Assembly (NCBI GenBank): GCA_014871385.1
Contig: CM026426.1
Coordinates: forward strand, 55,857,375 to 55,921,374
Length of the DNA: 64,000 nucleotides
Reading direction: 5' to 3'
Source: Ceratodon purpureus
Taxonomy: Eukaryota; Streptophyta; Bryopsida; Pseudoditrichales; Ditrichaceae
Shown: in pieces, positions 12,923-55,531 of the stretch
How positions within the stretch are numbered: the first letter of the stretch is position 1
How the letters are laid out: every line of letters begins with the position of its first letter
Made by a program: the position numbers and the translations under genes
Notes under the pieces: generated by a model
Seen by the model: the letters and a program-made list of their open reading frames with translations, nothing else
Databases searched by the model: none
What the model was told of the DNA's origin: nothing

Positions 12923-13055
12923 ACATCTTCCTTTGTCTAGAAAATATAATGTTGGATGAATGGATGAACAAAATTCAGTTTAGTCGTCTCCAAACAAATA
13001 TAAGCAATCTGCCTAAATTCAGAACTTCAAGACTACCAGCTTAAAAGCTACATGT

Positions 13056-15915: not shown

Positions 15916-16007
15916 TGTACTTGGAATGCAACAGATCCAATCATATGAGAACATATTTTACTCCTTGATGAAAATTCATTTCCAGTCAGAGACCATCGTC
16001 CAGACAC

Positions 16008-16082
16008 AGTTTAGCTCGAGTCGAGCTAAGCTGCATGGCATCCACAGAGCCGCGCAGTTTAGCTCAAATCGAGCTAAATTGC
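16008..16082. repeat. Two palindromes in the leader region of the copy 1 DUF7869 gene
   Basis: TTTAGCTCGA-G-TCGAGCTAAG and TTTAGCTCAA-A-TCGAGCTAAA occur upstream of the minus-strand start codon, in the inferred leader intron. The matching region of element B has four intact sites, so copy 1 has lost or never gained two and has point changes in the others. Confidence 0.75.
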
Positions 16083-16684: not shown

Positions 16685-16765
16685 CAAGGTTCGGTATTCA
16701 TTGTTAAGGGTTTAGGGAATGAGGTCCACGGTTCAGGGTTTAGAGTATAGGGTTTAGGGTTTTAC
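16685..16765. repeat. Interstitial TTTAGGG-like repeats (copy 1)
   Basis: Imperfect GGGTTTAGGGTTT units, including GGGTTTAGAGTATAGGGTTT, resemble the plant telomere repeat. The same tract is at 36,600-36,690 in element B, so it travels with the element. Confidence 0.8.
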
Positions 16766-16869
16766 AGGAACATAAAATTTATAGAACATGGAAGAAAATT
16801 AAAATCCAAAATTGTTTGAATTTAATTGAATTTCGAGAGTAAGGTTCATATAGTGATGCACATTGTTAA

Positions 16870-27648: not shown

Positions 27649-28022
27649 CGGGGACCTTGTGATGGTTTCCGGGATTTTGTGAAAGTTGCTAAGGCGGAGG
27701 CTTACCTCAATAGGGTGGGCCGATGATGGTTGTGGTTTGTTATTAATTTAATTTGAATAAGTGAAAATTTAGTCTTGATAGTTGCTGTTTTTTCTAATAC
27801 TGATTACCTTGTTTATGAATAAGGAATCCGATGAAGATAACTTGGGGAGCGAACGTCAAGACCTGACGCCAGCGGAGACCGAGAAATTTCATTAGTTTCA
27901 CAATGAACATGGATTTCACATTTTTATAAAGTTAAGTTCGCCTAATAATACTACTCTTATAAAATTGGAATTTAACCCTCACTTCATTTCTTCTACTATA
28001 GGTATCAATCGATGCTCCTGAG

Positions 28023-31000: not shown

Positions 31001-31906
31001 GGTTTATGTCATCAACTCCTCTCTGGATTCGGTTCTGCTTCGACACAAGGAGCTCTCTGACGTGGGTGGCGATCACGAATGGAACAAGGCTTTAGACATC
31101 GCTCGAATGGTATGATCCGTTGTTTAGTGCTTTCCCTTCAATACGTACATTACTGTAAATCTTATAATGTCTAACTTTGTTTTCTTGTTTACTCAAGTTT
31201 GGAGCAGGCTGCGAGAACCGAGTTCCGCCAAGATGCAAAGAGCAGAATCACTTGGGATTCGACTTGATCATTGCCGACATTCCTGAGAATCTTCCGGTCC
31301 CTACGATATCCAACCCCCCCTATGTCACTCCATCTTGGAACAAACGTCATAAGGAGTATTTGGAGGACCTCTTCGAATTTGCAAGACATTACTTGCAGTA
31401 TGATGGTGCTCTTTGCATAATCCACAACAACGACCAAGATTGGGCTTCGCAAATTTCTGAAGTGGCTAATCTTGATGGCTTCGTGCAGCACCGAGACTGG
31501 TGGGGCTTCAATGCACTAGGCTTGGCTCACCCTACGATCCCCGGCTCCTTGGTATGTAAATCATAATCATTCCTTGTCTATGCATTCTACTAAGCTTTCT
31601 TATTAATTACACTCACATATTTTGGTGTCTCGCAGTCTCTTCGATTCTGGGTGCGCGTCTTCATTTGTGGTGGTCATCCCCCATCCAAGTTCTCTTTTCA
31701 AACAAAGAAATCCGATGTCGTATACAGCGACCTCCAAATTACCGAGAGTGATGCCATTCTAAACTTCACCGATGTGGAATCGCAGCACATGAATGGGGAG
31801 GTGCCGTGGAGAGGGCCAAGTGAGAAAGCCCTTGAGATGATGCAGGGCATAATTGAGGAGATGTCAAAGCCCGGTGACATAGTCTTTGAGTGGATGGCAG
31901 GAACAG
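28023..31906 (+). pseudogene. Gene A, 5' part: CTD-like heptads, ParB-like domain, methyltransferase-like domain (multi-exon)
   Basis: The exon at 28,023 encodes three heptads matching the RNA polymerase II tail (YMPTSPV, YEPTSPG, YMPTSPP). The exon 28,558-29,147 has a ParB-like core, FFVWEGIHRLSAW (the GxHRxxA box) followed by WHISVHYIVLD and LLHAMHDIN. Exons with clean GT-AG borders follow: 29,230-29,425, 29,511-29,705, 29,797-30,012, 30,113-30,337 and 30,437-31,107. Exon 31,198-31,551 has GFDLIIADIPENLPV and SNPPYVTPSW. Exon 31,636-31,906 has the PSEKALEMM helix and GDIVFEWMAGTG, which is motif I of beta-class N4/N6 methyltransferases, placed after motif IV as in that class. The order ParB then methyltransferase resembles phage and bacterial ParB-methylase fusions. 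In-frame TGA (30,233) and TAG (30,513, 30,795, 30,999) and one frame change show decay. The gene continues at 50,488. Confidence 0.65.
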
Positions 31907-31934
31907 GTAATCCTTCATTAACAGTTTCTGCATT

Positions 31935-31962
31935 TAACACCATATTCGTTATTTTGGGAGAT
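31935..31962 (+). repeat. Left terminal inverted repeat of element B
   Basis: These 28 bases are the exact reverse complement of 50,401-50,428. The inner part continues into a local hairpin: ATTTTGGGAGAT (31,951-31,962) pairs with ATCTCCCAAAAT (31,968-31,979). Copy 1 has the same end at 12,076. Confidence 0.92.
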
Positions 31963-32452
31963 TTATCATCTCCCAAAATAATGCATTAGGTCAGGTCGAG
32001 TTAAAATGGGCACAATGGTCCCATACTTGGCAAGGAAAAGCTTATAAGCAATTTCCATTAATTTGGGACATGATCACACAGTACTAATGGGAAATGAAAG
32101 AAGGTAGTGGTTTACTAGAAATACTTGAAAAAATACAAGGTAGGTCGAACCACCCTAAATGAACATCATGCATATAACAAGAAATGGACACAACGGATAT
32201 GCTGGGAAATCTTATATTATATATATGTGTGGAAATACAAATTAGGTCGACACTCCTTAAATGTTGAATCCGTGACAGGCTCTTTCAGACCTGTACAAAC
32301 AATCAAGTTGCTCGACTAACATAGCTGCCTACAGTTTCGAAAATATGATATGCAATCCAAGAACATACGGACTTCATAATAGTCCCATGCCAACAAATGT
32401 ATGTTATCGGCTCTACTTCAGAGATCCAAACTAGGAACTTCAACGCTAGATG

Positions 32453-32788
32453 TCGTTTAGGTCGCCTCGACCTAAATGGCTGTTATACGGCAGTACATAT
32501 GATATAGAATCAACGCTTTAGGGTACTAAGTAAAAATCTACACTAAGAACTATAGGTGACCTGTTGGTATCCCGCACTCGTAAAATACGAACTTCAACGC
32601 CAAATGCAGTTTAGGTCGCCTCGACCTAAACTGCGGTCTATAATGTGGTACACATGATAAATAAGGAATGGACAGAAACATTTAAATAGTGTTCCCTCCA
32701 ATTAAATATATGTAATTAGCTAGTATTCAAAACATAAATACGCTAGAACTAATACGCTATAACTGATTAGGTCGACTCGAGCTAAACA
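32453..32788. repeat. Left subterminal palindromes of element B (3 sites)
   Basis: Sites near 32,456, 32,608 and 32,765 have the TTTAGGTCG-CTCGACCTAAA form or a hybrid with the internal GCTCGAG form. They correspond one to one with copy 1 (12,593, 12,748 and 12,902), in DNA that otherwise differs by several percent. Confidence 0.75.
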
Positions 32789-32907
32789 TCTACCTTTGTC
32801 TTGAAAACAAAAGGGACGAACAGTATTCAGTTCAGTCGTCTTCAAACGAATATAAGGGATCTGACTAAATTCAGAACTTCAAGACCACCAACTTCAAAGC
32901 TACATGT

Positions 32908-35745
32908 TTATTCGGAATCCGAAGACACAAATCTCTCCAAGGAGGCCTTTATAATGTCCAGTTGTTTGAGTGGGATCTTCAGCGTTGGATCCTTGCCAAG
33001 CCCCCGCTCGTTGACATTTTTTTCAACTTTTGATTTCCAAGCTGTTAGGACTGCATCAGTACTCTGCCACGACTCGGGTACATCCTTCTCTACTGTCCAA
33101 CGAAGTCTTCCATCCACATCCCAGCCGGTATAGAATTTCAAAACATCTTCTTCTCGGGAAATTGGGCGGTAGAACTCTACTTGGAGCGTGTTCGGGAGGT
33201 CAGGGTTCGAATTAGGGTCAGTCAAGGCCCGCGCAAGCCAGAAAGGACGATCGTCTTCATCGCAGGGTCAAAGCGCCAAGAAGTACCCTGCAAAAAGGTC
33301 TCGCGCAACACGGAACGACGGTCCTGGGCGATCTCGTTTGTGACCAACAAAGTGATCATCCTCTGCGAACTCCTCGCGCAAAGTTCCATCTTCCTGAAAC
33401 TCGTCTTCGACGGAGTAAGCGAGCCGCGTGGATGGCCAAAAACCATGCTCCAAGGCGGGGACAGCATCAAAGGGGATGGAAAGAGCCTCTTTAACATCGT
33501 TCCAATAGTATGAGAGTGGCTCATAGATTCTTCTGGACTCCACTGAATCCAAAGATAGCCTCTCCCAATGATCTACAAAACCCGACAAGCCTTTAATCAC
33601 ATTAGGCAGGTGCCGCATCTCGCGAGGCGCCACGGCACCAGGAACACCACGGGGCCATAAAGATCGACCTTCTGAATCCTCCTTCCACAACTTGATGCCA
33701 CAACCATCTCCTTTTGGCAACCAGTCGTCGTCGTGACAGAAGATTTTATACTTCATGACTAGGCATCCTGAAGAATCTACATAGAATTTGAACTGATGAG
33801 CTTTAGTGTGACCCATTAACGTATCGTCGCCATCAAGCATCCACTCCGCGATGAATTTCTTGAAATCTGGGACCTCCCGAATAAGATGCGGAATTGTTGG
33901 TACTGCTTCATTTTTCATGAAGGACTTCATGAGGAGAGGAACTGTGGGGAAGTCCTCTTCCGCAAAGCCATGCTCCATCATCCAAAAAGGGCATCAATAT
34001 CGTCATGAGTATCGTCTACCAGCATGAAGTTCACGTACGCTTCGCGAAACACCCGCTTCGCGACTAATAGGGACCAGAATGAAAATACAAACCTATTCTT
34101 GTTATCGCTGACAGCGTTATCCATTTGGACGTTAAGAATGGGAGGCAACGGTTTAGCAGCAACAGGAACCTCAGGAGGAGGGCCAAGAGGATCCAAACAC
34201 ATCTCTGAACCATGCAAAAGCGCGGCATACAATGAATGAGAAGGATTTGCTTGAAAGAGTTCCCTAGAGGTGGATTTTGGGGGTGACTCAAGGTCCCGAA
34301 GGAGCTTCGCAAACGATCCAACCATGTAATTAGCGTCGTGTGAGTAAATGTCAAGGCCATAATGGGCATAATGCTGATCCACATGCCCATGAGCAAGCAT
34401 TCCCATAACATCAAGAGGAAGCTTCATGAGACCGTCTAAGTCTTTGACCTTGTGGAATAAGGCCGGCGACGCCGTCTTCGAGTGGTCCATCTTGTCATGC
34501 ATAATTGTAAGAACTTCATGCGGAGTAGCCTTCAACGTGAATCGATTTAGGTAGTACAAGTCCCTATGCGCCATTGCAGAGTCATTGTGCAGCCTCATTT
34601 TCTTAGACCACAACAGGGACGCCTGAGATCCTGTTACCGTCAACTTCTTCTGGGACTGGAACTCATCACATTTTGAGCAACGAGCGAAGTTGTCTCCTGC
34701 CCGTTTGGCGTAATATTCTGGATAGCTAAGCCTCCTGATTTTGCTCAAGTTAGAAGCGGACATAGGAGGCAATCCGCAGTCTGCTAAATGCTCATCGAGG
34801 TTGGGAATCTTTTCCTTCCATTTTAAACTGGAAGGTAGAACTTTAGCTATAACTGCCTCCCCTGAAGGCAGAACACGACTCTTGTGGGGCATGTGGTCGG
34901 CATGCCTGTCCAGGATGGCCCCTAGGACGGCAGTTGCTACCACTATGTGATTTCGAGGTTTACGTAAACCAGTATTACCGTGAAATTGAGCCTCGAAACC
35001 AGCAGCAACATACGGGGCATTTCTATAGAATGTACTGGAGCGCACTCCCATAATCTTCATCCAGGCGAAGGGGCAAACATCTATGTTCTCCAGAGTCACC
35101 ACACTCCTCCCCGCTGAATTCTTGTGGATCTGTCTATGCACGTCGAGTTTTATGTGGTTACGGAACTGCACTGTGGTCTTGTCGTACATACGTGACCGTA
35201 GACTAGAGATTTTATCTCTGGGATAGTGTTGGACGCATAGGTGAGCGCAGCACGTGTTTGCCGCTACAGAGTTGATAGATGGCTGGGTCATTAGAAACTC
35301 AGCGTGACGTGATATAGGTGGGGGGGTATTCCTAGAGGAGTTATCATACGATCGGGTACGATCTCCCAGGGATCGGTTACGCTCCGCAACCCAACGGGTA
35401 TACACATCACGTTGACTATGGTGCTCTAGGCTAACTCCATCCAGATAGACGTGGCTGATAGGCCACGTTTTGAAGGAGTACCTCCAATCATCCTCTGACT
35501 CTTCTTCGACCAAAGAACGTGATACCTGGACGACAACAACGGAATCACCAAAAGAACCAGCCGGAGTCAGATACCAAGCTGGACCGTGGGTTCCGGATCA
35601 AACCCTCTGCTAACGGGATATTGTCGTCACTATATATTGTTACAGTCTTATTCTGCCATTGTCTTGAGGGTACAACCACGAAGTCTGGAAGGTCTGGGTT
35701 TACGGGCACTTCAACGGGTACCTCATCATCTGAGACATAGTCCAT
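32908..35745 (-). pseudogene. DUF7869-type transposase-like gene, copy 2 (broken)
   Basis: ATG at 35,745 (MDYVSDDEVPVE) follows a TTTCAG acceptor. The frame breaks at about 35,550-35,560, where this copy has 10 bases more than copy 1. From 35,513 to 33,981 it is open and includes NTCCAHLCVQHYP, FARCSKCDEF, the core LNVQMDNAVSDNKNRFVFSF and VDDTHDDIDALFG, the GHTHxDID-like block of DUF7869 proteins. The family usually has GH where this protein has DD. A TGA after DALFG, a 1-base shift into EEDFPTVPLLMKSF, and a TGA after FLAL (33,268-33,270) follow, then DDRPFWLARALTDPNSN and a normal end at 32,908. The role is inferred to be mobilisation of the element. As it stands the gene cannot make a full-length protein without readthrough and frameshifting. 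Confidence 0.75.
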
Positions 35746-35840
35746 TGTACCTGAAATGCAACAGACAAAATATTGTGAGAGCATATTATACTCCATAAAG
35801 GGAACCAATCTCTAAATTTGAGAACTTATCCTAGGCGCAG

Positions 35841-36005
35841 TTTAGCTCGAGTCGAGCTAAACTGTTCCTGGACTATGGGAAGCATGAGTTTAGCTCGAGT
35901 CGAGCTAAACTGCTGCTTCCCCAAAGGGGAGCAGAAGTTTAGCTCGACTCGAGCTAAACTCATGATGCTCTTTGGATACGGCAGTTTAGCTCGAGTCGAG
36001 CTAAA
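35841..36005. promoter_or_regulatory. Four-palindrome cluster in the leader of the DUF7869 gene
   Basis: Four perfect sites (arms TTTAGCTCGA, centre G or C) are centred at 35,851, 35,899, 35,948 and 35,995, spaced 48, 49 and 47 bp. They lie 100-260 bp upstream of the start codon, in what appears to be a leader intron. The 25-30 bases between sites are unrelated to one another. This suggests protein binding that regulates the gene. Confidence 0.8.
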
Positions 36006-36599
36006 CTGCAGTCCGCAAAAAGCGGCGCTTTAATAGGTGCTTCCGTCTTCGGAATTCTGTGACGCATACTCAGAGTACGCTTACGGTGTCCGATCTAAAA
36101 CGTCTGGAAGAAGTAAAGAGAGACACTGCATATACACCATGACTTGAATCAATGGAAAGCATACAACAAGCAGAAATCAACGAAGTGTACTGATGATCGG
36201 AGAGAACTAAAGGGAAGACGTACAAGAGAAACGGCGCAATACAGCTTCCGCCCAGAAAACAACCACCTCCAAGTGGGCGCCGAGAGCTCCTACAAGCGAG
36301 AGAAGCAAGTGAGTAGAGAAAGGACTTCAAGCGGGGACGATTCCAGAGGTCATTCTCTATCGTCTGACCGTTTTCATGCCGCTGGAATTTTGAAAATAGG
36401 CGGGAATCATGCATGACCATTCGTCTCCCCACATTTCGGGGTGTGAGAATGCGCGGGAATTACCACTTTCCATACTTCTCGGCCCTTTAGATAGATGCAG
36501 ATGCGAAATATTTGGTGCATTAAATCAAATGGGATGGGTTGGAAGTCCCTATAGCGCCAGACAGAGTGTTGACTTTTGGCCGCGAACTTTTCTTCCTCT

Positions 36600-36690
36600 A
36601 TCAGGGTTCAGGGTTTACGGTATAGGGTTCAGGGTTAAGGGTTTAGGGTCTTAGGTCCAGGGTTAAGGGTTTAGGGTTTAGGGTTAAGGC
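36600..36690. repeat. Interstitial TTTAGGG-like repeats (element B)
   Basis: About ten units of GGGTTTAGGGTT with variants (GGGTTCA, GGGTTAA). Located just beyond the first (untranslated) exon region of the minus-strand gene and conserved in copy 1. Confidence 0.85.
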
Positions 36691-36699
36691 ATTTCTAGG

Positions 36700-37860
36700 G
36701 ACATTAAATATGTCGTACATGGAATAAAATTAAATCGAAAATTGTTTGAAACTATTTGAATTTCGTGAGTCAGGTTGATACAGGGAAGTATATCGTTGCA
36801 AATATTTATACCTCCATTTACTAAATATGTATTTTTGCTCAATTTAATTATTATATGTGATATATGAAATCAATATGAAGTAGGTACTAATATATTCATT
36901 AACAATTTAATGTCCAGTTAAGAATAGTACGAGAATAATTAACTAAAATCTAATGTATACAAATCTTAAAATGATATACAAGTATATTCAAGTATATACG
37001 AAATACTTTGTTAAAAATTATAGTATTAATTATAGCATGGGGTGACCTAACTGCAAGCCTAATATTCTTAAAGTACATGATACTATCATAATTTAATTAT
37101 AATATAATAATATAGTATAGTATACCAAGGCTCTAATATATTCATTTACAATTTTATATTTAATTATTGATTAAAATACGAGAATAATAATCTATATTCA
37201 AGTATATACAAATCTAAAAATGATATACAAATATATTCAAGTATATATACGAAGTACATTATTAAAAATAAAAGTATTAAATTATAGAAATCAATTCATT
37301 TATTATGGCAAATTCTTTATATTTTTTAAAAGGTTTATGGTTTCTTATATTTATTCATGAGAAGCGAATATTTTAACCATGGTATGCCTTGTATGATAGG
37401 CATGGAAATTACACAAACTTTAATCAAGTCATTAATGTTCTACCTTGAGTTATATTTGTACAATTTTATTACATTCTCATAAGAAAGTGGAATGTTTGGT
37501 TCATTCATTTTTTTTAAAAAACTCTTAAATTATGGATTCAAATGAAACGTATTAAACCAATGATCATAATTATAATTGTAGTATTAATATATAATATTGG
37601 GAAAGGCTCTAGATGCTTGTCTAAGCATACAATTCCATAAATCAATTCTTTAATAATAAATTAAAATGACACATTTAAGTAAATCCGGACTTTCGAAAGC
37701 CCACATCGGTCAAAGTCCCGTTACCGAGTCTGGTCAAAGTCCTCTTCGTTACTCTGGAACATTCGGCTTCCCCCCCATGCTGCTTCATAAGCATAAGTTC
37801 CTTTGGGCGACGGAACAGTTGTTTCATTCTTAGTTTCCCATCTGTTTCATCTACTTGTAG
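36700..37860. other. AT-rich spacer inside element B
   Basis: Composition is very AT-rich with ATATAC-type simple sequence. No gene seen. Confidence 0.6.
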
Positions 37861-37873
37861 TTCATTTGCTGTG

Positions 37874-38209
37874 ATGAGGAGGTCGGGCGGTGGTTTTAGG
37901 GTGTCAAGTTACCCGCCTGACGAGTGGGAGGTGGTTGTTTCCCCACAAGGAGTGGAGGAGCTTTGTCCCTGGTTTATGGCTGTGGAACGCGCCCGTGGTC
38001 GCGGCGTAGAGATTCCCCCGTGGAACCTCATTGCACGCCTAATGCAGCCCGGTGTGGAGTGGGATTGGACTATTGCACATGGTCTAGAGCAACTGGAGAT
38101 TATGAACGCTTCCAACATCAAGTTTCCCCTCACCTCCGGCGAGGGCTTCTCTATGCCTAATTCTAATGAGGAGGGGACTGTGGATTTGGGGAGCCCACCA
38201 CATGAGTGA
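37874..38209 (+). CDS. Hypothetical small protein in element B, 111 aa
   Basis: ATG at 37,874 opens 111 codons of balanced composition inside AT-rich DNA. The product starts MRRSGGGFRVSSYPPDEWEV, continues with VEELCPWFMAVERARGRGVE and IPPWNLIARLMQPGVEWDW, and ends with an acidic PHE. The Trp-rich, compact middle suggests a folded domain, but I recognise no family. It lies between the divergent leader regions of the two main genes and reads toward gene B. Whether it is a separate gene or a first exon of a longer one is open. Confidence 0.4.
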   Translation: MRRSGGGFRVSSYPPDEWEVVVSPQGVEELCPWFMAVERARGRGVEIPPWNLIARLMQPGVEWDWTIAHGLEQLEIMNASNIKFPLTSGEGFSMPNSNEEGTVDLGSPPHE

Positions 38210-41200
38210 GTAGGTGAATTGTTATCTCCTCAGAACCCTTAACCTTGTCCTCAGTTTGATGTTTTCATAATAATAGATTGCGTTTGCTGTATGTATTGCA
38301 CAGAATTTTAATGGCTCATGCTGAGTTCGTTCTGATTGTTAGGAGGATGAGTCCTTGCTTTTGACATGCACTTTTCCGTTTTAAACCCTAAACATCATAC
38401 CATCTGATCCTGTTTTTCTCTTTTCTCCAGAACTTGCAGGCATCTTCGATATACTTCTACGGTTTTACTTTTTGCTGCTAATCAACTCAGATATGGAATG
38501 GGGACTTCAGGAGTAGTTAGCACGACCGTTAGATTATACAATATTTGGAAACCATAGATGTGAAAAGAGATGACTTTCATCTTATGGTAACTTTTGCTGA
38601 TGGATTGTAAACAATTTTTGGAATGGAATGCCTTCAAAACAGGGTTCTTCTAGACGATAACCAGTGTTTCATCTGATGCTTTCATATTTGCATATCTCGT
38701 ATTCTAATATGTCCATGCTAACTAGTAAATGTAGTAGTAAATTTCGTTTGAATCTATGAATTATGAATTTTGTATTTTAAAATTATGCAAATGAAGCAAG
38801 CATTCCACTTTCTTATTAGAATGTAATAAAATTGTAAGAATATTAGTCAAGGTAGAACGTGAATGAATTGATTAAGATTATTGTAATATACATGCCAATC
38901 ATACAAGGCATACCATGGTTTAAATATTCGCTTCTCATGAATAAATATAAAAAACCCTAAACCTTCTAAAAAATATAAAGAATTTGCCATAATAAATGAA
39001 TTGAATTCTAAAATTTAATACTATTATTTTTAACAATGTACTTCATATATATACTTGAATATACTTATATATCATTTTAAGATTTGTATATACTTGAATA
39101 TAGATTATGATTCTAGTATTATAATCATTAATTAAATATAAAATTATAAATGAATATATTAGTATCTTAGTATACTATACTATATTATTATATTATAAAT
39201 AAATTATGATACTAACATGTACTTTAAGAATATGATGACAACATTTATGTAAATATGTTTCCAATGAGAGTATATGAAATTCATTTTCATTGCTAATAGT
39301 GTATTCATATTTGATGCTTTAGTCAAATGATTACAAATTATTATAACATAAAATAAAAATGTACATTTTCATCCTTTACAATTGTTCATAATTTGTCCAC
39401 TTCGAAGCTCGAAATTGTGTATTTTTTCAAAACTTCCAAAATTGCATTCAATTTTTTTTTAATAGAATTTTAATTTATAAACCCTATTTGTTTATTTTGT
39501 ATTATAATATTTCCATATTTTACTGTAAATTTAGTAACGGGGAGGCTGAAAGCTAATAAAGACAATAAAAAACATACTTCTCTATCTTTCATTCATAGAA
39601 ATTTAGAAATCCAAATCTAATGTAGATTCATAAATTTATATGAATCCAAATATAATCAAAATGCAATACCAACTTCACATAATGCAAGCATGTTTTGAAC
39701 CATTGTAAAAAATTACCAATACTTTTCATCAGAATAAAAAAAAATGAGTTCCCTATCCTGTTTAGTTTTCATTGGAACTCACATTGGGTTGGCAACCTCA
39801 GCCCCATTCACAGTACACATTAAGGGACATGGTTCTCCAACTCCATGTGAGTTATTGGAGCCATCATGGTGAATTCTTCTTAAGGTAAGAAAGAACAGGT
39901 TTACCAAACCTTATGGGGTTAACAATATGGAGACTGAACCGCACTATCTATCTTTAAAGTAACTTCCTATAAAAAGTTATTCACTTCCTCACTACCCGTA
40001 TCAGGTTAATACAAATAAAATACAAAAAGGGACAGTAATATTTAATTCGCAATTCTTACAAATATTGATATTACCAATCAGTGATTCTGATATAACTAAA
40101 ATTATTATTCCATAATGAAAAGTATATTTTTAAATTGCAGTATCTATGTACATGCTTGTATATGAATTCTGAATTACCAAAATCTTCAAAATTGCATGGA
40201 ATTTATTTGGAATAGAATTCTAATTCATAATTAAACTAACAAGTTGTAGAAGAATAATATGATGATAACATTTGCGTAAATATGTTCCCAATTATAGCAT
40301 AGTAAATAAATTTTCATTGCTAATAGTGTATTTATATTTGATGCATTCGTAATATAATTACAAAACTATTTCGAATATATTTGTATATCATTTTTAGATT
40401 TGAGTATACTTGAATATAGATTATTATTCTCGTTTCATAATCAATAACTAAAAATAAATTTGGAAAAGAATATATTAGTACCTTAGTATACTATACTATA
40501 TTATTATATTATAATTAAATTATGTTCCTAACATGTACTTTAGGAATATGATGATTATATTTAGGTAAATATGTTTCCAATTTGCGTTTATGAAATTCAT
40601 TATCATTGCAAGTAGTGTATTTGAATTTGATGCTTCGGCAAATAACTACAAATTATTATTACAAAATTGGAAGAAGCATTATTGAATTGATTAAAATTTA
40701 GTTACTTCAAAAAAATCAAAAATCAAAATCTAATGTAGATTCATAAATGTATATAAATGCAAATACAATCAAAACACTAAACCAACTTCACATAATGCAA
40801 GCATGTTGTGTAGCATTGTAAAATATTACCAATACATTTCATCAGAACCCTGAAAAAACGAGTTCCCTATCCTGTTTAGGTTTCATTGAAACTCACACTG
40901 GGTTGGTAACCTCAGCCCCATTCACAGTACACATTAAGGGTCATGGTTCCCCAATCCCATGTGAGTTATTGGAGCCATCATGGTGAATTCTTCTTAAGGT
41001 AAGAAAGAGCAGGTTTACCAAACCACATGGGATTAACAATATGGAGAGTGAACCGCACTATCTATCTTTAAAGTAACTTCTTAAACAAAAGTTATTTTCA
41101 CTTTCTCACTACCCGAATCAGGTAAACACAAGTAAAATGAAAAAATAGACAGTAATATTTAACTCGCAATTCTTACAAATATTGATATTACCATTTGGTG

Positions 41201-41320
41201 ATTCTGATATAACTAAAATTATTATTCCATAATGAAAATTATTGACTACTCTAAACACCAAGAATTACCGAATTTCAATTTCGAAGCATTTTAAATTAAA
41301 TTTACAAAGAAACCCGCGGT
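38210..41320. other. AT-rich spacer with an internally duplicated conserved module
   Basis: No gene seen. Two copies of an about 310-bp balanced-composition module (about 39,650-39,960 and 40,770-41,090, offset 1,114 bp) stand out from 75-80% AT surroundings. A third copy is inverted at 17,650-17,960. The shared text includes GAGTTCCCTATCCTGTTTAG and TTGGAGCCATCATGGTGAAT. The flanking AT-rich DNA is duplicated too, at lower similarity. Confidence 0.7.
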
Positions 41321-42690
41321 AAAGGGCCACACGCTTTGGCGGCCTGGTCACAGGACCGTGCGAGGGGGCGGAACCAGACTCCGACTTCGTCCACTGTGTT
41401 TTTCCATTTTCTCCTGTGTGTGTGTTTTCATTCTGGCGCGCTCTTGTTGTGTAGTTTCGGTTCGAGTTTTCGTTTGTTCTTTTTGCCGCGAAGTGGTGTC
41501 AGGGTCTTGTTGCTTTGAAGTGTTTCCTTTGTACTGTTCGCAGTGTTTTGTAGTTTCGGGAGGATCAGAAGTAGGGTTTTAGGTTTTGGGGTTTCTTGAT
41601 ACTGTATCCGCAGTGTTTGTTCTTCATTAGGGTTTCAATAGTTTCTGGCGAAGAAGACTTCGTGGGTTCGTTTGATAACAGTAGTTGCGCGGGTGTTTTC
41701 CTCTCCGAGTCTGTGGACCATTTGTGGGTTTGTTATAGGTTTTGGGCAATTGGGTTCGTGCTGAATTTCTGCAACTATTATTTCGTGGAGCGGAGGTTCT
41801 ACAACGTCCATTTCAAAGTGCGGAGCGTCGTTCTTTCGATAGTCGCGGTGGAAGGTGGAGATTGCAGACTTCTTCGCAATACAAGTCTTCGAAACAACCT
41901 CGAGGTCAGTAGATCCCCCTCTTGCTATTCAATCAGTTCGCAGTTTACATAATCTTACTTCGTCAGTTCGAAACTGAATCTGTTTTCCGAAAGCTAGCAT
42001 GGATTTAGGTTTTCTTGAGGTCAAATCGAGTCATACATGCGTATTGTGGATTGCATACTGGTGTCTAGAATGAATTCAGCTATAACTTCTGTGAAAGTTA
42101 AGTTTTTGTAATTTACCACAATCTGTGAATTATCGCTGTTTTACTGTAATTGTAATGTATGAAAAACTTTGTGTGTCTATTTGAGAATTGTATCTGATTT
42201 TGTAAATCAGATTAAATACTGTCAACCTCTTTGTTAGATTCGTCCGAAGCCAAATCGCACGCTTTTGTTTATTTGATTCACTGTTCGAATGGCGCTTGTG
42301 TGAATCTTCTTGTATTTCTTTCTACTTGAAAATCATTGTGAACGGTATTTTGTTTTCGTGTCTGAATTATGTATGTTCTATTATAACTGTGTCTATGTAT
42401 GTGTGAATAAATTTATGATTGCAGTAGCATATTCGGTGTCTTCTGTTTTGGATTTCAACTTCGTCTGCATTGCCTTTGAAGTTCCCGTTTATGTTATTTG
42501 GATATCAATCTTGTTACAGTCCCCTTAGAATATGTTTATACTTCCGCATTTTTCGGGAATACGGTAATAGGATGTCACCCATTTGTATAATTCTCGAATC
42601 GTTTTCTTACCTATATAAATCCTTCCTTTTTGCAGGCAGAACAAGTTTGATCAGCTTTACAACGGCGGAATCTGAAGGAATAACAATAAA
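41320..42690 (+). promoter_or_regulatory. Leader exon and leader intron of gene B
   Basis: Balanced-composition DNA from about 41,320 ends at a donor near 41,904 (CTCGAG|GTCAGT). A T-rich intron follows, with an acceptor TTTTTGCAG at about 42,635. A short exon then carries the start codon in AATAAAATGGCCGACAG. The same structure, with the same acceptor and start context, is found at 54,110-55,542. That supports a genuine transcribed leader with an intron. Confidence 0.6.
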
Positions 42691-42753
42691 ATGGCCGACA
42701 GGTACTTCAAACTGTGGAAATTGCGTTAAAAATCCTTTGAAAATCAAGAACAG

Positions 42754-43253
42754 TTTAGCTCGAGTCGAGCTAAACTGATTGACGAAGACAACTATCGCTC
42801 TACAATTTAGCTCGACTCGAGCTAAACTCACATACACAATGAAAAAAATCATGATAAAAACTCTAAAAGTACTTCGAATTTCACTAATAAATTGCTTCAG
42901 TTTAGCTCGACTCGAGCTAAACTGTAGTCAGATACTACTGTCTATCCTGCAGTTTAGCTCGAGTCGAGCTAAACTGCAATTTAACTATGGTATCTAATTA
43001 CACTTTAGCTCGACTCGAGCTAAACTAAAGGTGAACTTCCCGAAACATACCCGGGAGATCCACTACAGTTTAGCTCGAGTCGAGCTAAATTGTGAGTGCT
43101 CCATCGTGTAGCCCAAGCAGTTTAGCTCGAGTCGAGCTAAACTGCTTGGGCTACCAAGGGCATCGTGTAGTTTAGCTCGACTCGAGCTAAACTCCTGGGA
43201 TGCCATCGGTTACTTGTTTAATAGAACCAACATTTAGCTCGAATCGAGCTAAA
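42754..43253. repeat. Nine-palindrome array in intron 1 of gene B
   Basis: Nine sites of TTTAGCTCGA-S-TCGAGCTAAA are centred at 42,764, 42,816, 42,911, 42,963, 43,014, 43,079, 43,131, 43,181 and 43,243. Centre-to-centre distances are 52, 95, 52, 51, 65, 52, 50 and 62 bp, mostly close to whole helical turns. Nearly all arms are perfect while spacers are unrelated. The array fills the intron just after the start codon. It resembles a clustered operator or parS-like platform. Confidence 0.9.
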
Positions 43254-44762
43254 TGGCTTCGAATTTGTCTAATGGTAAATGTGTCCTCCTTGCAGTGAGG
43301 AGAAAGCAAGGGTAATTGAGGCGCTACGACATTTCTTCAAGCCTGTTCCTATCTCTGATTCAGATGACGATGACGGGGATGACTCAAGCACATTTGAGGC
43401 ATGGACCTTCAAAGACCCCTCGAAGGTCAAAAATTGGACTCTGCGATGGGTTGCATACACATCATATCTAACGTTCGCAACCATTTTCAAGGGAGAAGTC
43501 GATGATCCCGAGGTCATCGACATGGATACAAAGGTCACCGAGTTTGACAATAAGGGAAAAGACCAAATAAAGATCCTCTGCTCATCTATCGGGGCTAATC
43601 CATACCTCTTCTCCATAGTAGTAGACGTAGCGGAGAACCTCTTCGACCCCATTTCCTTAATGGAAAGTCTGTCCAATTCACCTTTCGAGGAGATAGTCTC
43701 CACGATGAGACAAGAAATACTGGACAGGAAATGGGCAACAAAGGATGGACGAACTCTCGCGGCAAAATCCCTAGTGTGGAAACTGAGGAATGTTGTCTGC
43801 ACCCTTGCTCTCCGCGCAACGGAGGCAAAGGTGAAGCAGAACCTCGGAAAATCTCATGTTGACGTTTCTGGAGTGACAGCAACCGGGAGTCAAATGGGGA
43901 GCCAACAGACTGGACGCAGTAGGGGGAGAGCAATAGTTCCATCCCAAAGCCGAGGCGCTTCTGCAACTCCCACGCCCCACTCACCATTGAAGAAGAAAGG
44001 CCTTGAGAAGAAAACTGACAAGCCAAAGCCCAAGAAGGACTTGCTCTTATCTGCGGAGGACTTGGCAACAAGTTTGAACTCTGTTCTCGGGGAACTCCCA
44101 AAGGTGAACAAGGTAGGAGAGGTCCTCGACTTCAATAACGCCAATCGCATTTACCAGAATTTCTTTTCAGATTGCCAGGACGAGTTCGTCTTTAAAACGA
44201 ATGGGCAACCAAAGAAGTTCAGTGTGGACGTGACGCGGTGCAAGCCCGCACCGGCCGCATGGACTATCCGTGCATATGAGAAGCGGGGCATGGAGGAGAT
44301 GAAGAATTACTTGGTCAACATGCCTGATAGGGGTCAGAAGCAAACCCTGTGTCTGATGCCAGACACGAAGGCACGACCTCAACTAGAAGAGGATCTGGAA
44401 GGCTGTGAATTCCACATCATCAACGGGCAACACAGCGTGGCGGCGTCCAAATCTCTCATCGAGGATAACGCCAGTGAGGAGTTGTTGAGGGACTTCAGGA
44501 GGTGGGATGCGTACATCGTTTGGACGCATGATATAGATAAGCTGCGAAAGATCTCAGCATTCTATAATCGGGTGAACCATCTCGCACCCTTCAAGCCAAC
44601 TTGGGCGAGCAATATACTTGCCTCTAGAAAAGTGTGGCTGAAGTATGGTAAGCCCCAAAAGAAAAATGCTGCCGCTGGTGCTGCGGACCGCAGGAGTACA
44701 GGTCCGAAAAGTAATCCAGCGTCGAAGACATATGACGTAAGTTCACTGATTCATTAGCATTA

Positions 44763-44888
44763 GTAGTTTAGCTCGACTCGAGCTAAACTTCCTGCAGTTT
44801 AGCTTGAGTCGAGCTAAATATTGATAATCTTCTTGGTTTTCAATATTCTGGTGTATCTCGATCAATTTAGCTCGAGTCGAGCTAAACA
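44763..44888. repeat. Three palindromes in intron 2 of gene B
   Basis: Sites near 44,765, 44,798 and 44,865 lie wholly inside the intron 44,737-44,936. Two have perfect 10-bp arms; the middle one has a single change (AGCTTGAG). Confidence 0.85.
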
Positions 44889-46322
44889 GTAGTTCCGAGA
44901 CAGCATCATCTAAGGTTTCTTCCTATGCGTATGCAGAACTTTTTGAATGCAATCAGGGAGCGCTTCGCTATGATCGATGTGGCGAAGCATCAAGCCATGG
45001 TGGCGAAGAAGGGAGGGAAGAACACTATCTCCCTAACAAACGAGCTGTTTATCATCACATCCAGTGATGAAACATGGGACCTGTGGAAGGAGGTGATCGC
45101 GTCTGCGGCATGTGGTGGACTCATTGATCCCGACACCGAAGCTCCGCATAAGAAATTCTATGAGAAGAAGGGGTTCGTTCCGGACAAGGATGGGACGCTT
45201 CCGAGGGAGTTCTTCAAATGGCTCGGGAACTTGACAGAGGCAGATCACCAGAAGATGTGTAAGCACATCCTGCATAAGTCTGGGCCAAGTCGGAAGTACA
45301 CATATCCGAAGGTTACCATCAAGTAGAATACGAGTGTATTGGAGGACTGCTACTCGGTCAAGGAGTGGGCGGAGCGGAGAAAACGTAAGGCTGTAGCTCA
45401 AGCGGAGTTCAACAACATTAATCCAACGCTCCATTTATGTAAGAGAGACGGCCTTGATGTACCCGCTTGGAAGCATTTCAAGAAGACTTACTTTGTCTCC
45501 AAGGAGTCGAAGCACGTTCTGCTTGACTGGGGTATTCCAGACTCGTACTGGACTAACTCCAGAGCTACACAGTTCCGCAACAAGTCGGCCAAGGATCTCT
45601 CCCCATATGTGGTTGAGTTCTTCAAAACCTTCCTGAAGGTTCGACATGCATTTCAGTGTCCTTCAGCTGAGATGTGGTTCCTCCCATTTATCAGGGAGCC
45701 TTGACTCTCCTTCGGATCTTGGCCCTCCGATATATGGAGGTTGGCGGGCGACGCAGTCACATTCGGAATCATCGACTTCCGGTTCCTCCCAACCTACAAG
45801 ACGAGGCATAACTACACTTTGGAGAACCCCTTCTTCATGGAGTTTTTCAATATGATCGAAGAGTATGGGCAGCCCCAATTTAACGATGTTCGGCACTGGC
45901 TTCTCATTTGCGGAGACGATGAGGACTTCGCCCAGGTGCTCACTTGGGTGGAGCGAAACACCTTGAGTGGTCGTAGAAGATTCCCCTCTGAGTATTTACC
46001 CGCTCCTAACGAGCGACTTGGCGGACACCCCCCGAAGAGCAGAATCGCAATGGAACCCGTCAAACTCCTGTTTCTCATTGATGATAATGTACTTGAGAAC
46101 GTCGGGTCAACGCGAGTACCTCTGAGCAAGTACACAACTCCGGACCACCCACTGTACAAGGACAACAGGAAGTTCAACGAAAGGAGGTACGCAATGTATC
46201 CATCCGAGTTAAGGATGGAGTTCTACCTGCAGGTCCTCGACACTTTCTGCAGTACTGGGGTGGCGGTTTATCAGCTCTATGCGGGAACGAAGTCCCTCAT
46301 GGCCGCCGCGGTAAGTTTCCAC

Positions 46323-46420
46323 ACTTTAGCTCGAGTCGAGTTAAATCGTTCTGCTGTTTTGATCTTATGGACCATGTATGCATACACTTCCACACTTTAG
46401 CTCGAGTCGACCTAAACCTT
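46323..46420. repeat. Two palindromes in intron 3 of gene B
   Basis: Degenerate sites near 46,325 and 46,397 within the 137-bp intron. Each has an intact left arm (TTTAGCTCGA) and a changed right arm (GAGTTAAA, GACCTAAA). Confidence 0.8.
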
Positions 46421-47513
46421 GTTTACCTTGCCTTTGGTTTTTTCCAGATGCTTTCGATCTCGGCTTTTTTCGTCGCGGATGATAGTGACTTGTCTCATAT
46501 GATCGAAGCTCAGTCACTTGGTTTGACTGTGGACCCAACCGATTTTAGTGTCGACGCTTATTATGTCGATAAGGAACGCTTTCCGGCATATCGCAGAGCC
46601 GTGCGGAAAGGGAAAGGCAGAGCTGTGGAGGAGGGTGACGATGAAGAACTGGAGGAGGATGCCCCTACCGAAGAACAAACCCCCCCCCCTCCAGTGCTGC
46701 GGACATCAGCAATGAGAGCGATGCGCCGCCTTCTGATCCGATAAGTCAAACAGCATCTGAGGGTGGAGTGGGGAGAAGACTCGATTTCCCTGACGTCGAC
46801 ATTACACGTACGGACGATGAGAGACCGGGTTCTGCACCGGAGCTGGGATCCGGAAGTGGGAGAAAGACTGGCGGTGCGCGAAGTACTAGAAAGCCGGCTC
46901 AGAAGAAAAAGAGGGTCAATCCTCCAGCTCGGCAAGCCTCCCCGTTGGGGAGAGCCGCTCCCGATCCGGATATTCAAGCTATTCTCGCAGAATTGCAGGC
47001 GTCCAAGGATAGGAATCAAGCATTACAAGACCAGATGGCCCAGCAGAAAAAGGATATAGTAAAGACCGTGCATAAAAAGGATATAGAGAAGACCGTGCAG
47101 GCGGCACTGCAAGGTGTTCTGCAAGGCATGAGTAGTGCCACTCTTTTCCCGAATGCGGGTCCAGTTCTGCCCAATGTCCAGCCGATAGGTAGTGCCCTGC
47201 CTACTTCGTGAGTACTTGAGATTTTGGGCTCCGCTACAGGTGGTGCAAAATTGCCAGAGTCGGATCCGAGTCCCGCATCACTGCCTGGGCCAAGCCATCA
47301 TTCCACCGACCAGGTCATGCGTGACTCTAGTCCCAGTCCACCCCGTTCTCCCTCCCACAATCAGACTCAGGGAGATGCTCCCGAGACATCTTCAGGTCCC
47401 TCCCAAACTTAGATTTTTTGAACTCGGAATTTTGTAGATGAGGTGTTAATACCGGAGTAGTTCACTGAAATGTGCATTTTGTACCAAAACGATTGTAATT
47501 AATACAAATGGGC

Positions 47514-47540
47514 TGTTTAGCTCGACCCGAGCTAAACCGT
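47514..47540. repeat. Palindrome between the gene B tail and the HAD exons
   Basis: TTTAGCTCGA-C-CCGAGCTAAA has one mismatch and lies in the non-coding stretch 47,413-47,619. Confidence 0.8.
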
Positions 47541-47619
47541 TCAACTTTTTACCAATCCCTTCTATGTCAGCTTCATTGATCACTCTCTGATGATTCTATA
47601 GTTCTTTTGCAATGCCCAG

Positions 47620-48786
47620 GTCACGAAGTGAATGAGGAAGTGGAAGATCTTCGGATCGTGGATGATGTTGTCATGGCCCAAACTGCGGATGAGCCTGTAC
47701 GCACAAATATGGATTTAGATGTCACGGCCCAGTGTGCTCTGACCTTGCCAACGTGCGTAGAAGTCATTCCTAGCGATCAACCTCAGAATTCATTAGGGTC
47801 GATGGGTCCTGTGGAGGATCGGGATGTTGTAGAAGGCCAAGCCGAGGATGCTCAGGTATTTCATCTATCATTATATCTCGTTGCACTGTTTCCTTGGAGA
47901 ATGACTTGCCTTGCGACTGTCCTCATTGTATCATTCGTATAACCCCGTCCTAGTATAATATAGTAATGTCCATCTGTCATCGGTATTTCCTCTCCAGGTG
48001 CGCGAGGCATCTGGATAGGACGTAAGTTCTAGTGAAGAATTGAGTCCTGTCCCGACGCGACCTCAGAGTGGTTGGTTGAACGTTGTCCTCGACCTCAATG
48101 GAATACTCTGCTCCAGTACTCCTAATTGGCCTGGAAAATCATTCGTTAGCCATGACCTTAGCATCCACTCAGCGTCCAAGCCAGCAGTCGTGGGCCCCAA
48201 GCTTGTTTGTGTCAGGCCCAATTGCGCTGATTTCCTTCGTCGGTTGTCAGCATTCGCAACCATAACCGTCTGGAGTTCGATGAAGACTTTGACGACAAAA
48301 ATGATATGCGACTATCTGTTCGGTCCGATTCGTCCTGTCTATCCGCTCAGAATTCTAGGTCAAGAGGACTGTCAGAGAGTTCATATGGGCATAGATTTTC
48401 GAGGTCGTCCGGTATATATGAAGGAACCCGGGACTCAGAAGGACATCTTCCTTAAGCCGATGTCTGATGGTCTCTTTCGTAAATTTGGTGGCCTATATTC
48501 CGAAGCCAACACCATTTTTATCGACGACAGCCCGATCAAGCACTGTCAGAATAATTCTCACAATGTCCTTTTACTCTCCACTTGGAACAACGAGAATCCC
48601 GATGCCGCAGATGATCGTTTCTTGTTGTCGAAACTTTTGCCATATCTTGTTGACCTACACCACTTTGTGGGGACAATCGCTAGATTCAGGGCCGAGCGTC
48701 CGATCGGGAAGAAAATGTATTATGATGACCGTTCTACCTGCGAACAATACGCTAAGATTAATGAGGCAATTAGTCGTAGACCATAA
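47620..48786 (+). CDS. FCP1/SCP1-like HAD phosphatase-domain protein (two exons)
   Basis: Exons are 47,620-47,855 and 47,998-48,786, ending in TAA. The first encodes an acidic segment (NEEVEDLRIVDDVV). The second has the HAD fold of CTD-phosphatase-like proteins. Motif 1 is VVLDLNGILC, motif 2 ITVWSS, then LKPMSDGLFRKFGG, and motif 4 is NTIFIDDSPIKHC. FCP1/SCP1 enzymes dephosphorylate the RNA polymerase II tail through DxDx(T/V). Here the second Asp is Asn (DLN), as in some plant HAD-like proteins, so catalysis is doubtful. An in-frame TAG (48,016) precedes the domain. A donor-like CAG|GTCCCT at about 47,395 could join the gene B tail in phase to GHEVNEE, making the HAD domain the C-terminus of gene B. 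Confidence 0.65.
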
Positions 48787-49015
48787 TTTGGCATGGTTTC
48801 AGTTCTCTACTTTGTTAATAGACATTTCATAACTGCCGCGCAGCTATTAGTATGTTGTACATCTTTACCACTTGCGTAATCTTTGTATCCAGACTACTCC
48901 TTTTGTAATACGAAGTTTATTTTTCTTTCTTAATATTTTCTGCCCTTGCGACAAACCCTAAACCATTGCTGAATTATTGCGGGATGTATGTTTCTATTCG
49001 CTTTATGTATTGCAG

Positions 49016-49844
49016 GATAATGCATGTCGAGCCTCTGTGGATTCTTTGAATAATGCTTATGGCTGCGGGCCTTCTCTACGTAGCAGAGGGCTTTTGTTGC
49101 AATCGGTTGCAACAGCGCAGTCCACGATGGACTATTCAACCATGGCTGTCGACGAAGGGGTTGTGGACAGCCCGGTTAACCTGTCCGTTCCCAAGACCCT
49201 GAAATCCCCTTCTCCTATGTGGCCACGGACCGTACTACAGGTTCTATCTCCGAAACGACAGAGTTCTACCCCTACGAAGCGTGCTCTTTATAACAATGTG
49301 GAGGACATGCCGTCACCACCACCGGCAAAGGTTGGTTTTCATTCCTCAGTATTCGCTTTTCATTCCTTTCTGATGTTTCATCCCGTATGTTTCTTTCATG
49401 ATGTTTCATTCTGATGTCCTTATTTTAGCTCGAGGCCACCTAAAATGATTGATCTTCTTATACTCTCATCTAGGTCTAGTTCTAGCTTATGTTGGCCTCC
49501 TCGTTCAAGGTCCGTTCGACCTTTACACTTGCACTCAGCAGTTTAGGTCGATTCGACCTAAACCGAAATCTCTTCCCAATGCTAATTTATCCCCTTTGCA
49601 GATGCCGAGGCTACGATCAACAACTACTGGATCCGGGGCAAGGAAGTCCGCCGACTCCCACTCTAAACCATCTAGTACCCGTCGCCACTCTCTGCCAGAG
49701 TCAAGCATTGGTGACAGGCGTAGGCAGAAGTTGCAACGTCTTCTTGATAGTCCAATGATGCAGGTTGAGGGAACGTCGTGGACACGTCAGCGCCAACGGG
49801 AATTTGTCAAGTCAAGAATTGAGGCTTACGGAGGGACTCCATAA
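49016..49844 (+). CDS. Gene C: small basic Ser/Pro-rich protein (two exons)
   Basis: Exons are 49,016-49,330 and 49,602-49,844 (TAA). The first ATG in frame is at 49,128 (MDYSTMAVDEGVV). The protein has several SP/TP sites (KTLKSPSPMWPRTVL, LSPKRQSSTPTKRAL, DMPSPPPAK), like cyclin-dependent kinase targets. A basic end follows (RRHSLPESS, DRRRQKLQRLL, WTRQRQREFVKSRIEAYGG). It is probably nuclear and disordered, with a helical tail. The intron contains two palindromes of the family. Both exons are open. I recognise no known family. Its place between the HAD exons and the right end makes it an element cargo protein. Confidence 0.5.
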
Positions 49845-50275
49845 CCATATAGAGGATACTATGTACTGTATAGCAATGGCGCAGACAATATAGACGAGTA
49901 TAAGAGTCGTCTGTGTTATTTCAATGTAATTATGTTTTGAATAAAACGATTGATCTGTTTGTCAAATTTTCTCGTCTGCTATTTTTGCCTCATTGTCTTG
50001 CACACTTTTTGTCTTATTCAAATTTCCGAATGTAATTAATGTGATTGGACATTGCCTTTTATTGAAACCTTGGTTTAGAAAAGGTAACGGATTGTTACTA
50101 CTAAAAATACAGGGGACGTGGTATATTCTTTTTCCTTGTTTATATTGCGTTTAGGTGTGATCGACCTAAATGACTTAATCATCATCTCTCTTTAAACATG
50201 TTTTTAATGAATCAATGAGCATTACTAAGTTTTCTCCTCTATGTTCGTGCATTTAGATCCACTCGACCTAAATGA
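49423..50275. repeat. Right-side palindromes of element B (intron of gene C and right subterminal region)
   Basis: Degenerate or GG-type sites lie near 49,425, 49,543 (TTTAGGTCGA-T-TCGACCTAAA, perfect arms), 50,151 and 50,251. They mirror the GG-type sites at the left end. The subterminal class therefore differs by two bases from the internal class. Confidence 0.75.
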
Positions 50276-50400
50276 CATGGGCCTCATTGTTCCTTTAAGG
50301 TGTTTTTAATGATTCAATATTGATTTCCGCAAGATTGAAGTAAATGGGAGGGGACGAATGTCGCCATTTCTCTACACGCTGATTTCCCAAAATCAATAAT

Positions 50401-50428
50401 ATCTCCCAAAATAACGAATATGGTGTTA
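50401..50428 (-). repeat. Right terminal inverted repeat of element B
   Basis: Perfect complement of the left end at 31,935-31,962. A second partial copy of the inner motif (TTTCCCAAAAT) lies just inside, at about 50,383-50,393. Confidence 0.92.
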
Positions 50429-54804: not shown

Positions 54805-55531
54805 CCGAGCAGTGCAATCAGTTTCCGAAATTCGATCAGTTCAATCAGTTTCAATCGTTTTCCATTCTGTCTGGTCTCATTCTATGGAATATTATCGACA
54901 GATTAGGATTAGCATTTTATTTTTTTAAGACAAATTCAGCAGATACATGTGTACAGTTGCACGCAGCCTGTGGTACTTGTTTTGTTTATTTGATTTACTG
55001 TCCGAATTGCGTCTGTGTGAGTCTTCGTGTGTCTGTTTGTGTCTCATTCTGTGTGTTTGTGTCACTCAGTGTTTGTGACTGTGATTGAGTTCATTGTCTT
55101 GGTTTTGTTTTGTATCAAAGTTGTGGTCTGGATGGAAACTGTGTCTACTTGTATTTTTGTCTACTTGAAAATCATTATGAACGATGTTTATTTTTCGTGT
55201 CTGAATTAATGTCTGTTTTCTGATAACTATGTCTATATATGTGTGAATTAATTTATGCTTGCAGTAGCATATTCGGTGTCTTGTGTTTTACATTTCAACT
55301 TCATTTGCATTGCGTTTGAAGTTCCCAATTATGTTTATTTGGATATCAATCTTGTTACAGGCGCCTTAGAATCTGATTATACTTCCGCATTTTCTGGAAA
55401 TACTGTAACAGGATGTCAAACATTTGTGTCATTCTCGATTTGTGTTCTGACCTTTCAAAATCCTTCCTTTTTGCAGGCATAACACGTTTTATCAGCTATA
55501 CAACGGCGGAATCTGAAGAAAAAACAATAAA

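Follow-up and report, generated by a model that had tools for sequence, protein, structure and literature searches.

Family-specific 21-bp dyads in a moss DNA transposon: a probable system of binding sites for an element-encoded protein

VANDAL elements of Arabidopsis are transposons of the MuDR type. Their introns and upstream DNA carry repeated motifs that vary from family to family and serve as binding sites for VANC, a protein encoded by the element itself, which removes silencing, as far as the accessible text of the two accounts goes (PMC5735166; PMC10398659). Giant algal transposons such as Sola1-1_Ec32 encode ParB-like and DNA methyltransferase accessory proteins that have been proposed to bind their own element, and the accessible part of that report describes no target motif for them (PMC12477816). 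A literature search (preprints excluded and few subscription papers included) returned no paper that names the domain DUF7869 or describes the dyads considered here. Two other systems are relevant to repeated protein-binding sites: the parS sites of bacteria, which are 16 bp long, and the subterminal repeats of the En/Spm (CACTA) transposons, which are bound by TnpA. Here, a transposon of the moss Ceratodon purpureus and its arrays of dyads are described and compared with these systems.

The window, that is, the whole stretch of 64,000 nucleotides that was analysed, lies on contig C6 (110.5 Mb) and contains a complete transposon copy (Table 1), the ends of which were found by comparing the window with two places on contig C1 and one on contig C2. 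Both of the complete copies that were examined, the window copy and copy E1 (C1:298018-316955; 18,938 bp), are flanked by a 4-bp target duplication, ATTT in the former and TTGT in the latter; with its terminal inverted repeats, the element thus has the features of a TIR DNA transposon. The exact terminal repeat occurs at 114 plus 119 places in the genome. Among 100 of these places that were listed, 31 neighbouring left-right pairs were counted; 23 of the pairs are 17.6-19.9 kb apart, the others are longer, and none is shorter. Broken further copies of the same transposon are present in the window at 12072-16946 (left part, with the transposase gene) and at 55144-56771 (right part, with an older dyad array). 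The small open frame between the two arrays, gene D, had no match in a Pfam profile search; judged by eye, it has a counterpart in a distant 678-aa family (L070:887-1432), and it appears to be tandemly duplicated in copy E1.

Table 1. Features of the transposon copy in the window (positions are those of the window).
Feature	Position	Strand	Basis
Complete transposon copy, 18,492 bp	31936..50427	none	Ends by comparison with E1 and other copies
Left terminal inverted repeat AACACCATATTCGTTATTTTGGGAGAT, 27 bp	31936..31962	+	Copy comparison; exact matches genome-wide
Variant dyads TTTAGGTCG...CGACCTAAA on the left side (32456, 32610) and a mixed dyad (32766)	32456..32786	none	
Gene A, DUF7869 transposase, frames broken in window copy	32911..35597	-	Open-frame list and Pfam
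Second dyad array, four perfect sites, 47-49 bp spacing, 5' of gene A frame	35841..36005	none	Site search
Small open frame (gene D) between both arrays	37679..38209	+	Resembles frame of 678-aa family, by eye
Gene B exon 1 (ATG GCC GAC AG)	42691..42701	+	Sequence; splice model inferred
Gene B intron 1, holds array	42702..43295	+	GT-AG, in frame; predicted from sequence
Array of nine 21-bp dyads TTTAGCTCGANTCGAGCTAAA	42754..43253	none	Site search
Gene B exon 2, with IINGQHS motif	43296..44736	+	Splice model from sequence
Three dyads within intron 2 of gene B, as modelled (44737-44936)	44767..44886	none	Site search
Gene B exon 3, open in E1 but with two in-frame stops in window copy	44937..46310	+	Open frames
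Two dyads within intron 3 of gene B, as modelled (46311-46447)	46325..46416	none	Site search
Lone dyad further downstream, outside listed frames	47516..47536	none	Site search
NIF-type (CTD phosphatase-like) open frame inside transposon	48019..48786	+	Pfam PF03031, E 2e-13
Right-side variant dyads at 49542 and 50252	49542..50272	none	Site search
Right terminal inverted repeat, 27 bp	50401..50427	-	Copy comparison; exact matches genome-wide

The transposon is inserted into another gene or element at 28002-31989, the last frame of which (31594-31989) runs into the left terminal repeat. In this region, methyltransferase-like frames (MTS E 0.00038 and N6_N4_Mtase E 0.02, both missing the cut-off) and an EGIHRLSA motif accompany an Rpb1 C-terminal-like repeat that narrowly misses its cut-off (Pfam E 0.0012), and the region resembles the ParB-like and methyltransferase proteins reported for algal transposons. 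No link between gene B and the window's second ParB-like gene was obtained (hhalign probability 0.2%).

Within the element, genes A and B are divergently transcribed. The piece of gene A at 33981-35597 matches Pfam PF25273 (DUF7869) with an E value of 1.2e-25 and 90.6 bits, against a curated cut-off of 26, and many other listed copies hold gene A as a 955-aa open frame. A total of 89 copies of gene B exon 2, out of 705 candidates, were scored, and these are 87-100% identical (the window's own copy included). Exon 2 evolves under purifying selection, with a dN/dS of 0.21-0.30 in the six pairs that four copies form. The 3' splice site of the modelled intron 1 reads TTGCAG in 39 of 44 copies. A gene B copy from the list lies within 20 kb of at least 94 of the 122 gene A copies that were scored, and is divergent in 92 of the 94, compared to a mean of 2.8 and a maximum of 7 in 200 trials of random placement; it should be noted that the gene B list comprised 150 listed entries plus two from the exon 2 search, and that the control omitted the two small contigs and took a guess for the length of contig C9. 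Among the listed gene B copies, the more diverged and broken ones are mostly on C6 and many open ones are on other contigs.

The initial annotation had labelled gene B as ParB-like. This label derives from an IINGQHS-type motif and from a likeness to algal transposon proteins that are called ParB-like in the accessible part of their report (PMC12477816), and the profile searches lend it no support. Searches of gene B against Pfam, NCBIfam, PHROGs, and PDB profiles returned neither a ParBc match nor a known DNA-binding domain; the matches in the PDB profile search were weak only, the best of them (E 0.01) being to an unrelated viral protein. The motif, in the form [IVM][IV][NG]GQH[SCT], is present in gene B of five families and also at locus L064. 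Relatives were sought in phages and viral contigs and none was found. A methyltransferase-like end of gene B was suspected from motifs and gained no support, as exon 3 gave no Pfam match and no meaningful PDB match.

The array itself had been described as nine 21-bp palindromes beside a gene, spaced 52, 95, 52, 51, 65, 52, 50, and 62 bp. A site search recovered all nine at these spacings, each with perfect 10-bp arms and with a centre base of G or C in eight and of A in one (43233). The dyads are indeed near gene B, albeit within its modelled intron 1 rather than beside the gene. In the window, 38 sites with up to three mismatches were found, compared to 0.00 expected from 100 shuffles; the nine dyads are genuine and far exceed chance expectation. 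Genome-wide (362.5 Mb, 151 contigs), the dyad of this family, hereafter family 1, has 2293 exact sites and the reversed control has none. The copy of the array at 55595-56094 has the spacings that had been given for it (52, 94, 52, 51, 50, 66, 53, and 61 bp), but its sites carry one or two mismatches.

A further proposal, that the spacings place the sites on the same face of the helix, found no support as a general rule in the spacings of 44 family-1 copies and of other families. In the 44 copies, 403 sites define 359 spacings, 219 of which are 52-54 bp, and spacings of 39 bp (24), 65-66 bp (34), and 88 bp (7) also recur. The second array is spaced at about 4.5 helical turns, and spacings in other families are approximately 25-26, 41, 53, 68, 73-77, or 127 bp. 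A count-weighted period test on the 44 copies did not favour 10.5 bp over longer periods, with an R of 0.68 at 10.5 bp that rose to 0.75 at 12 bp; with each of the 22 distinct spacings counted once, a weak vector peak is present at 10.5 bp (R 0.38), which favours the original claim. The 52-bp spacing is read here as the length of a repeated unit rather than as a helical-phase rule.

To evaluate conservation, intron 1 was read in these 44 copies, which are the window's and 43 of the other 88 gene B copies; 40 of the 43 were picked by hand and not at random (20 more and 20 less diverged), and three came from another search. In each copy, 700 bp upstream of exon 2 were read and 2-12 sites were called, although copies with 11-12 sites may hold more. 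Perfect arms were found in 326 of the 403 sites. In three groups of copies with like layout (7, 7, and 11 copies, or 25 of the 44), the arms differ by 0.8-2.7%, the spacers by 10-20%, and the exon (approximately 79 bp) by 5-7%; arm differences are thus lower than those of the spacers by a factor of 5-23, and lower than those of the exon as well. The DNA between sites drifts, as had been suggested, and the proposed comparison of arms against spacers favours the arms. Since sites were called at up to five mismatches, which favours conserved arms, a comparison of the last two sites is the fairer test: in all 44 copies, the arms of these sites differ by 2.0% and 2.4%, the spacer between them by 16.8%, the intron tail by 7.5%, and the exon by 7.2%.

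Beyond this array, related families in the genome were found to have 21-bp dyads of their own in matching positions. These families, read at one to five loci each, share a layout of two genes and two arrays, with dyads of the form 8-5-8. Four nearer families, in which the outer arms are common to both arrays of an element, have the dyads TTTAGCTC-GASTC (family 1), TTTAGCTC-ACWGT (family 2), TTATCCTC-GASTC, and TTCAACTC-GASTC; a family further off has GCGTCGGC-GGACA. Family 2 is a 966-aa DUF7869 family, with loci on C1 and C6, that encodes a divergent gene B with a core 37.6% identical to that of family 1. Its arrays have a 41-bp spacing beside gene B and a 26-bp spacing before gene A. The full dyad, TTTAGCTC-ACWGT-GAGCTAAA, with its outermost base pair mostly unmatched in the array before gene A, has 439 exact sites genome-wide (reversed control, 0). 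This dyad is kept at L071, L072, L073, and L084, where gene B identity is 89-96%, and variants in its centre or outer bases are present near gene A at L060, L061, and L062. Five loci with gene B at 55-58% identity carry TTATCCTC-GASTC-GAGGATAA with a variable outermost base; at one of them, on C5, the same dyad, mostly with one arm mismatch, is also present near gene A. On C3, a gene B with 36% identity is accompanied by TTCAACTC-GASTC-GAGTTGAA, which is also found in an array before a gene A 31 kb away, the two genes being taken as parts of the same element. In the distant 678-aa family, the dyad beside gene B is GCGTCGGC-GGACA-GCCGACGG, and those near gene A are CCGTCGGC/TAGTCGGC dyads with centres unlike those near gene B. 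Two perfect dyads of this family are within the long open frame of gene A, indicating that noncoding placement is not universal. L081 (38%) is a relative of family 1 that carries the family-1 dyad.

Not all loci have dyads. No array was found at L079, L082, or L083, where gene B is broken (40-52% identity). The one locus read of a 649-aa family, L064, encodes both genes, but 12.7 kb of sequence there yielded no dyad array of the 8-5-8 form, and none was detected in 4.5 kb upstream of gene A at L063 and L066-L068, where gene B was not located. As controls with DUF7869 but without gene B, L066 was uninformative due to a family-1 element upstream, and L064 proved to have gene B. At L066:56-208, three 17-bp palindromes CTTCTATYTCATAGAAG, 68 bp apart and 2.7 kb upstream of a distant DUF7869 gene, are possibly the dyad of another family.

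Overall, the dyads form a real, conserved, and family-specific system of probable transposon binding sites. An element-encoded ParB-like protein had been put forward as their reader. That the reader is encoded by the element is well supported at the sequence level, since the arms are conserved, the outer arms are shared by the arrays of an element, and the dyad changes with the family; gene B as that reader is plausible. The explanation preferred here is that the dyads are cis-acting binding sites for the transposon's own dimeric DNA-binding protein, most likely the gene B product, and its chances of being correct are judged to be about even. A protein dimer would contact both 8-bp arms, and divergence of the protein would go along with that of its site. 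By binding close to the 5' ends of both divergent genes, the protein would keep the genes of its own family active, either through autoregulation or by opposing host silencing, as VANC does on VANDAL transposons in Arabidopsis. In favour of this explanation, the family-1 sites are outside modelled exons, mainly in gene B intron 1 and just 5' of the transposase frame: none of the 25 element sites with up to three mismatches is in a modelled exon of gene A or gene B or in the phosphatase frame, while one (49542) falls inside a small open frame of uncertain status. The number of exact sites, the conservation of the arms and of the isolated intron dyads, the family-specific dyads, the joint occurrence of genes A and B, and the purifying selection on gene B exon 2 also count in its favour. 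Several observations count against it. First, no known DNA-binding domain was detected in gene B. Second, the L064 family lacks dyads, and L079, L082, and L083 lack arrays. Third, the dyad does not simply track gene B distance: identity to family 2 in gene B is 57.7% for the C5 family and 37.6% for family 1, yet it is family 1 that shares the outer arms of family 2; moreover, the two genes are about equally diverged between the C5 family and family 2. Fourth, dyads of the 678-aa family occur within an open frame and have unlike centres near its two genes.

Both genes are present together at the loci that were read on both sides, so co-inheritance cannot decide which of the two products is the reader. 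The DUF7869 transposase could instead bind the dyads, which would then aid assembly of the transposition complex or self-repression and leave gene B with another role; this is possible, although rather unlikely. The DUF7869 gene adjoins one array in the dyad-bearing families for which the gene A side was read, variant dyads (TTTAGGTCG...CGACCTAAA) are present toward both ends of the element, and binding of transposases to internal and subterminal repeats is common. However, the main arrays are internal rather than terminal. Further, family 1 has the terminal-repeat core AACACCATATTC in common with one of the two copies of family 2 but not the dyad centre, and recognition of ends and of dyads may therefore be separable. 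The core identity of gene B is lower than that of gene A in 10 of 10 family pairs and clearly so in nine (for example, 37.6 versus 54.4% and 30.3 versus 55.4%), the piece of gene A compared for the 678-aa family being 163 aa only; divergence is nearly equal in the pair of family 2 and the C5 family (gene B, 57.7%; gene A, 58.1%). The smaller divergence of gene A in nine of the ten pairs argues against the transposase as reader, and the lower identity of gene B might fit a specificity factor.

It is improbable that the dyads are functionless, that is, a self-spreading palindromic repeat homogenised by template switching or gene conversion. Some features of the arrays are in favour of this reading. 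The number of sites varies from 2 to 12 per copy in the 700 bp read, and the spacers are partly inverted copies of one another, indicating that units duplicate and invert and that copying between units may add to the uniformity of the dyads. The centre base (C 175, G 172, A 42, and T 14 in the 44 copies) differs by 33% and 39% among the copies of two of the three groups and by 4% among those of the third while the arms stay fixed, as copying in reverse orientation would give. The flips between G and C at the centre, with the inverted spacers, look as if palindromes drive template switching. Nevertheless, isolated dyads outside the arrays are conserved too: in introns 2 and 3 of four copies, 16 of 600 arm comparisons differ versus 120 of 1386 in the rest of these introns. 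The same family-1 dyad is present in two arrays approximately 7 kb apart, and dyads are at matching places in several families. Nor does a functionless repeat explain why the dyads stay symmetric and 21 bp long even as their sequence changes. Copying between units may account for part of the uniformity of the dyads under the preferred explanation of element-encoded binding.

It is very improbable that the dyads act as RNA, as pre-mRNA intron hairpins with a role in splicing or as a source of small RNAs. The gene model places most family-1 sites in introns, where they would be transcribed, and each can form a short stem; variant dyads are nevertheless also present toward both ends of the element. 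The substitution pattern disfavours such hairpins, as changes that keep a G-U pair are not preferred: among 78 arm departures (in sites with up to three mismatches), C>T plus A>G account for 25 and G>A plus T>C for 27. No symmetric pairs of changes were found among sites with two departures in the 44 copies. A total of 38 of the 78 departures are on the two CpG steps (positions 8, 9, 13, and 14), as methylation-driven decay would give. Equally improbable is that the dyads are sites for a host transcription factor used as intronic enhancers, since a single such factor, while fitting the location of sites near the 5' ends of both genes, would not suffice for dyads that differ by family in one genome and have outer arms common to an element's two arrays.

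With element-encoded binding as the preferred explanation, the nearest known behaviour is that of VANC and VANDAL in Arabidopsis, which the moss elements appear to resemble in sequence organisation without being members of that group. In both, as far as the accessible text on VANDALs goes, short element-specific motifs occupy introns and upstream noncoding DNA, an accessory protein is encoded, repeat number changes rapidly, and the motif differs by family (PMC5735166; PMC10398659). Family-specific arrays in noncoding DNA were found in the moss, with the two dyads of the 678-aa family in an open frame as the exception, and motifs change among related families along with the element genes, the L064 locus being without dyads. 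In contrast to the 21-bp dyad of the moss, the VANC motif consists of 9 bases in one orientation, and binding and demethylation have been shown for VANC, again within the accessible text (PMC5735166; PMC10398659), while the moss system was characterised by its sequence. Neither a MuDR-type transposase nor a VANC homologue was found, as the transposase is of the DUF7869 type and gene B has no meaningful Pfam match. Sola1-1_Ec32, in the accessible report (PMC12477816), and the moss element are both large DNA transposons of eukaryotes in which the accessory gene and the transposase gene occupy opposite strands (92 of 94 moss pairs are divergent). The moss transposase is a different one, and gene B, despite motif resemblances to the algal ParB-like and methyltransferase domains, matches no ParB or methyltransferase profile.

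The likeness to bacterial ParB and parS is limited to a possible ParB-like motif in the protein and to clustered palindromic sites; gene B has no ParBc profile match, the moss site is 21 bp long with a 5-bp centre, the sites are TTTAGCTCGANTCGAGCTAAA or family variants rather than parS-type palindromes, and no ParA match was obtained among the frames of the window that were scanned by profile. As in En/Spm, a two-gene transposon carries many copies of a short repeat, with protein binding known for En/Spm and proposed for the moss; unlike En/Spm, the moss element has no CACTA transposase domain in the frames scanned, its dyads are mainly internal, and its target duplication is 4 bp. A more far-reaching possibility, itself quite unlikely, is a superfamily of giant transposons in plants with a dimeric accessory protein of ParB-type fold and family-specific 21-bp dyads, in which the protein would load at dyads near both genes, spread along the element, exclude host silencing, and mark self versus other families.

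Family-specific dyads that diverge with the element suggest element-encoded dimeric DNA binding, as in VANC and VANDAL of Arabidopsis. The literature found on sequence-specific anti-silencing by transposons concerns the Arabidopsis VANDALs, and a moss element with a different transposase appears to carry the same signature. For the accessory proteins encoded by giant transposons, the dyads also provide candidate targets. In the exons that were searched, the frames are open in many copies, making a test practical, and the several family-specific sites in one genome would provide natural pairs of site and protein with which self-recognition by selfish elements could be examined.
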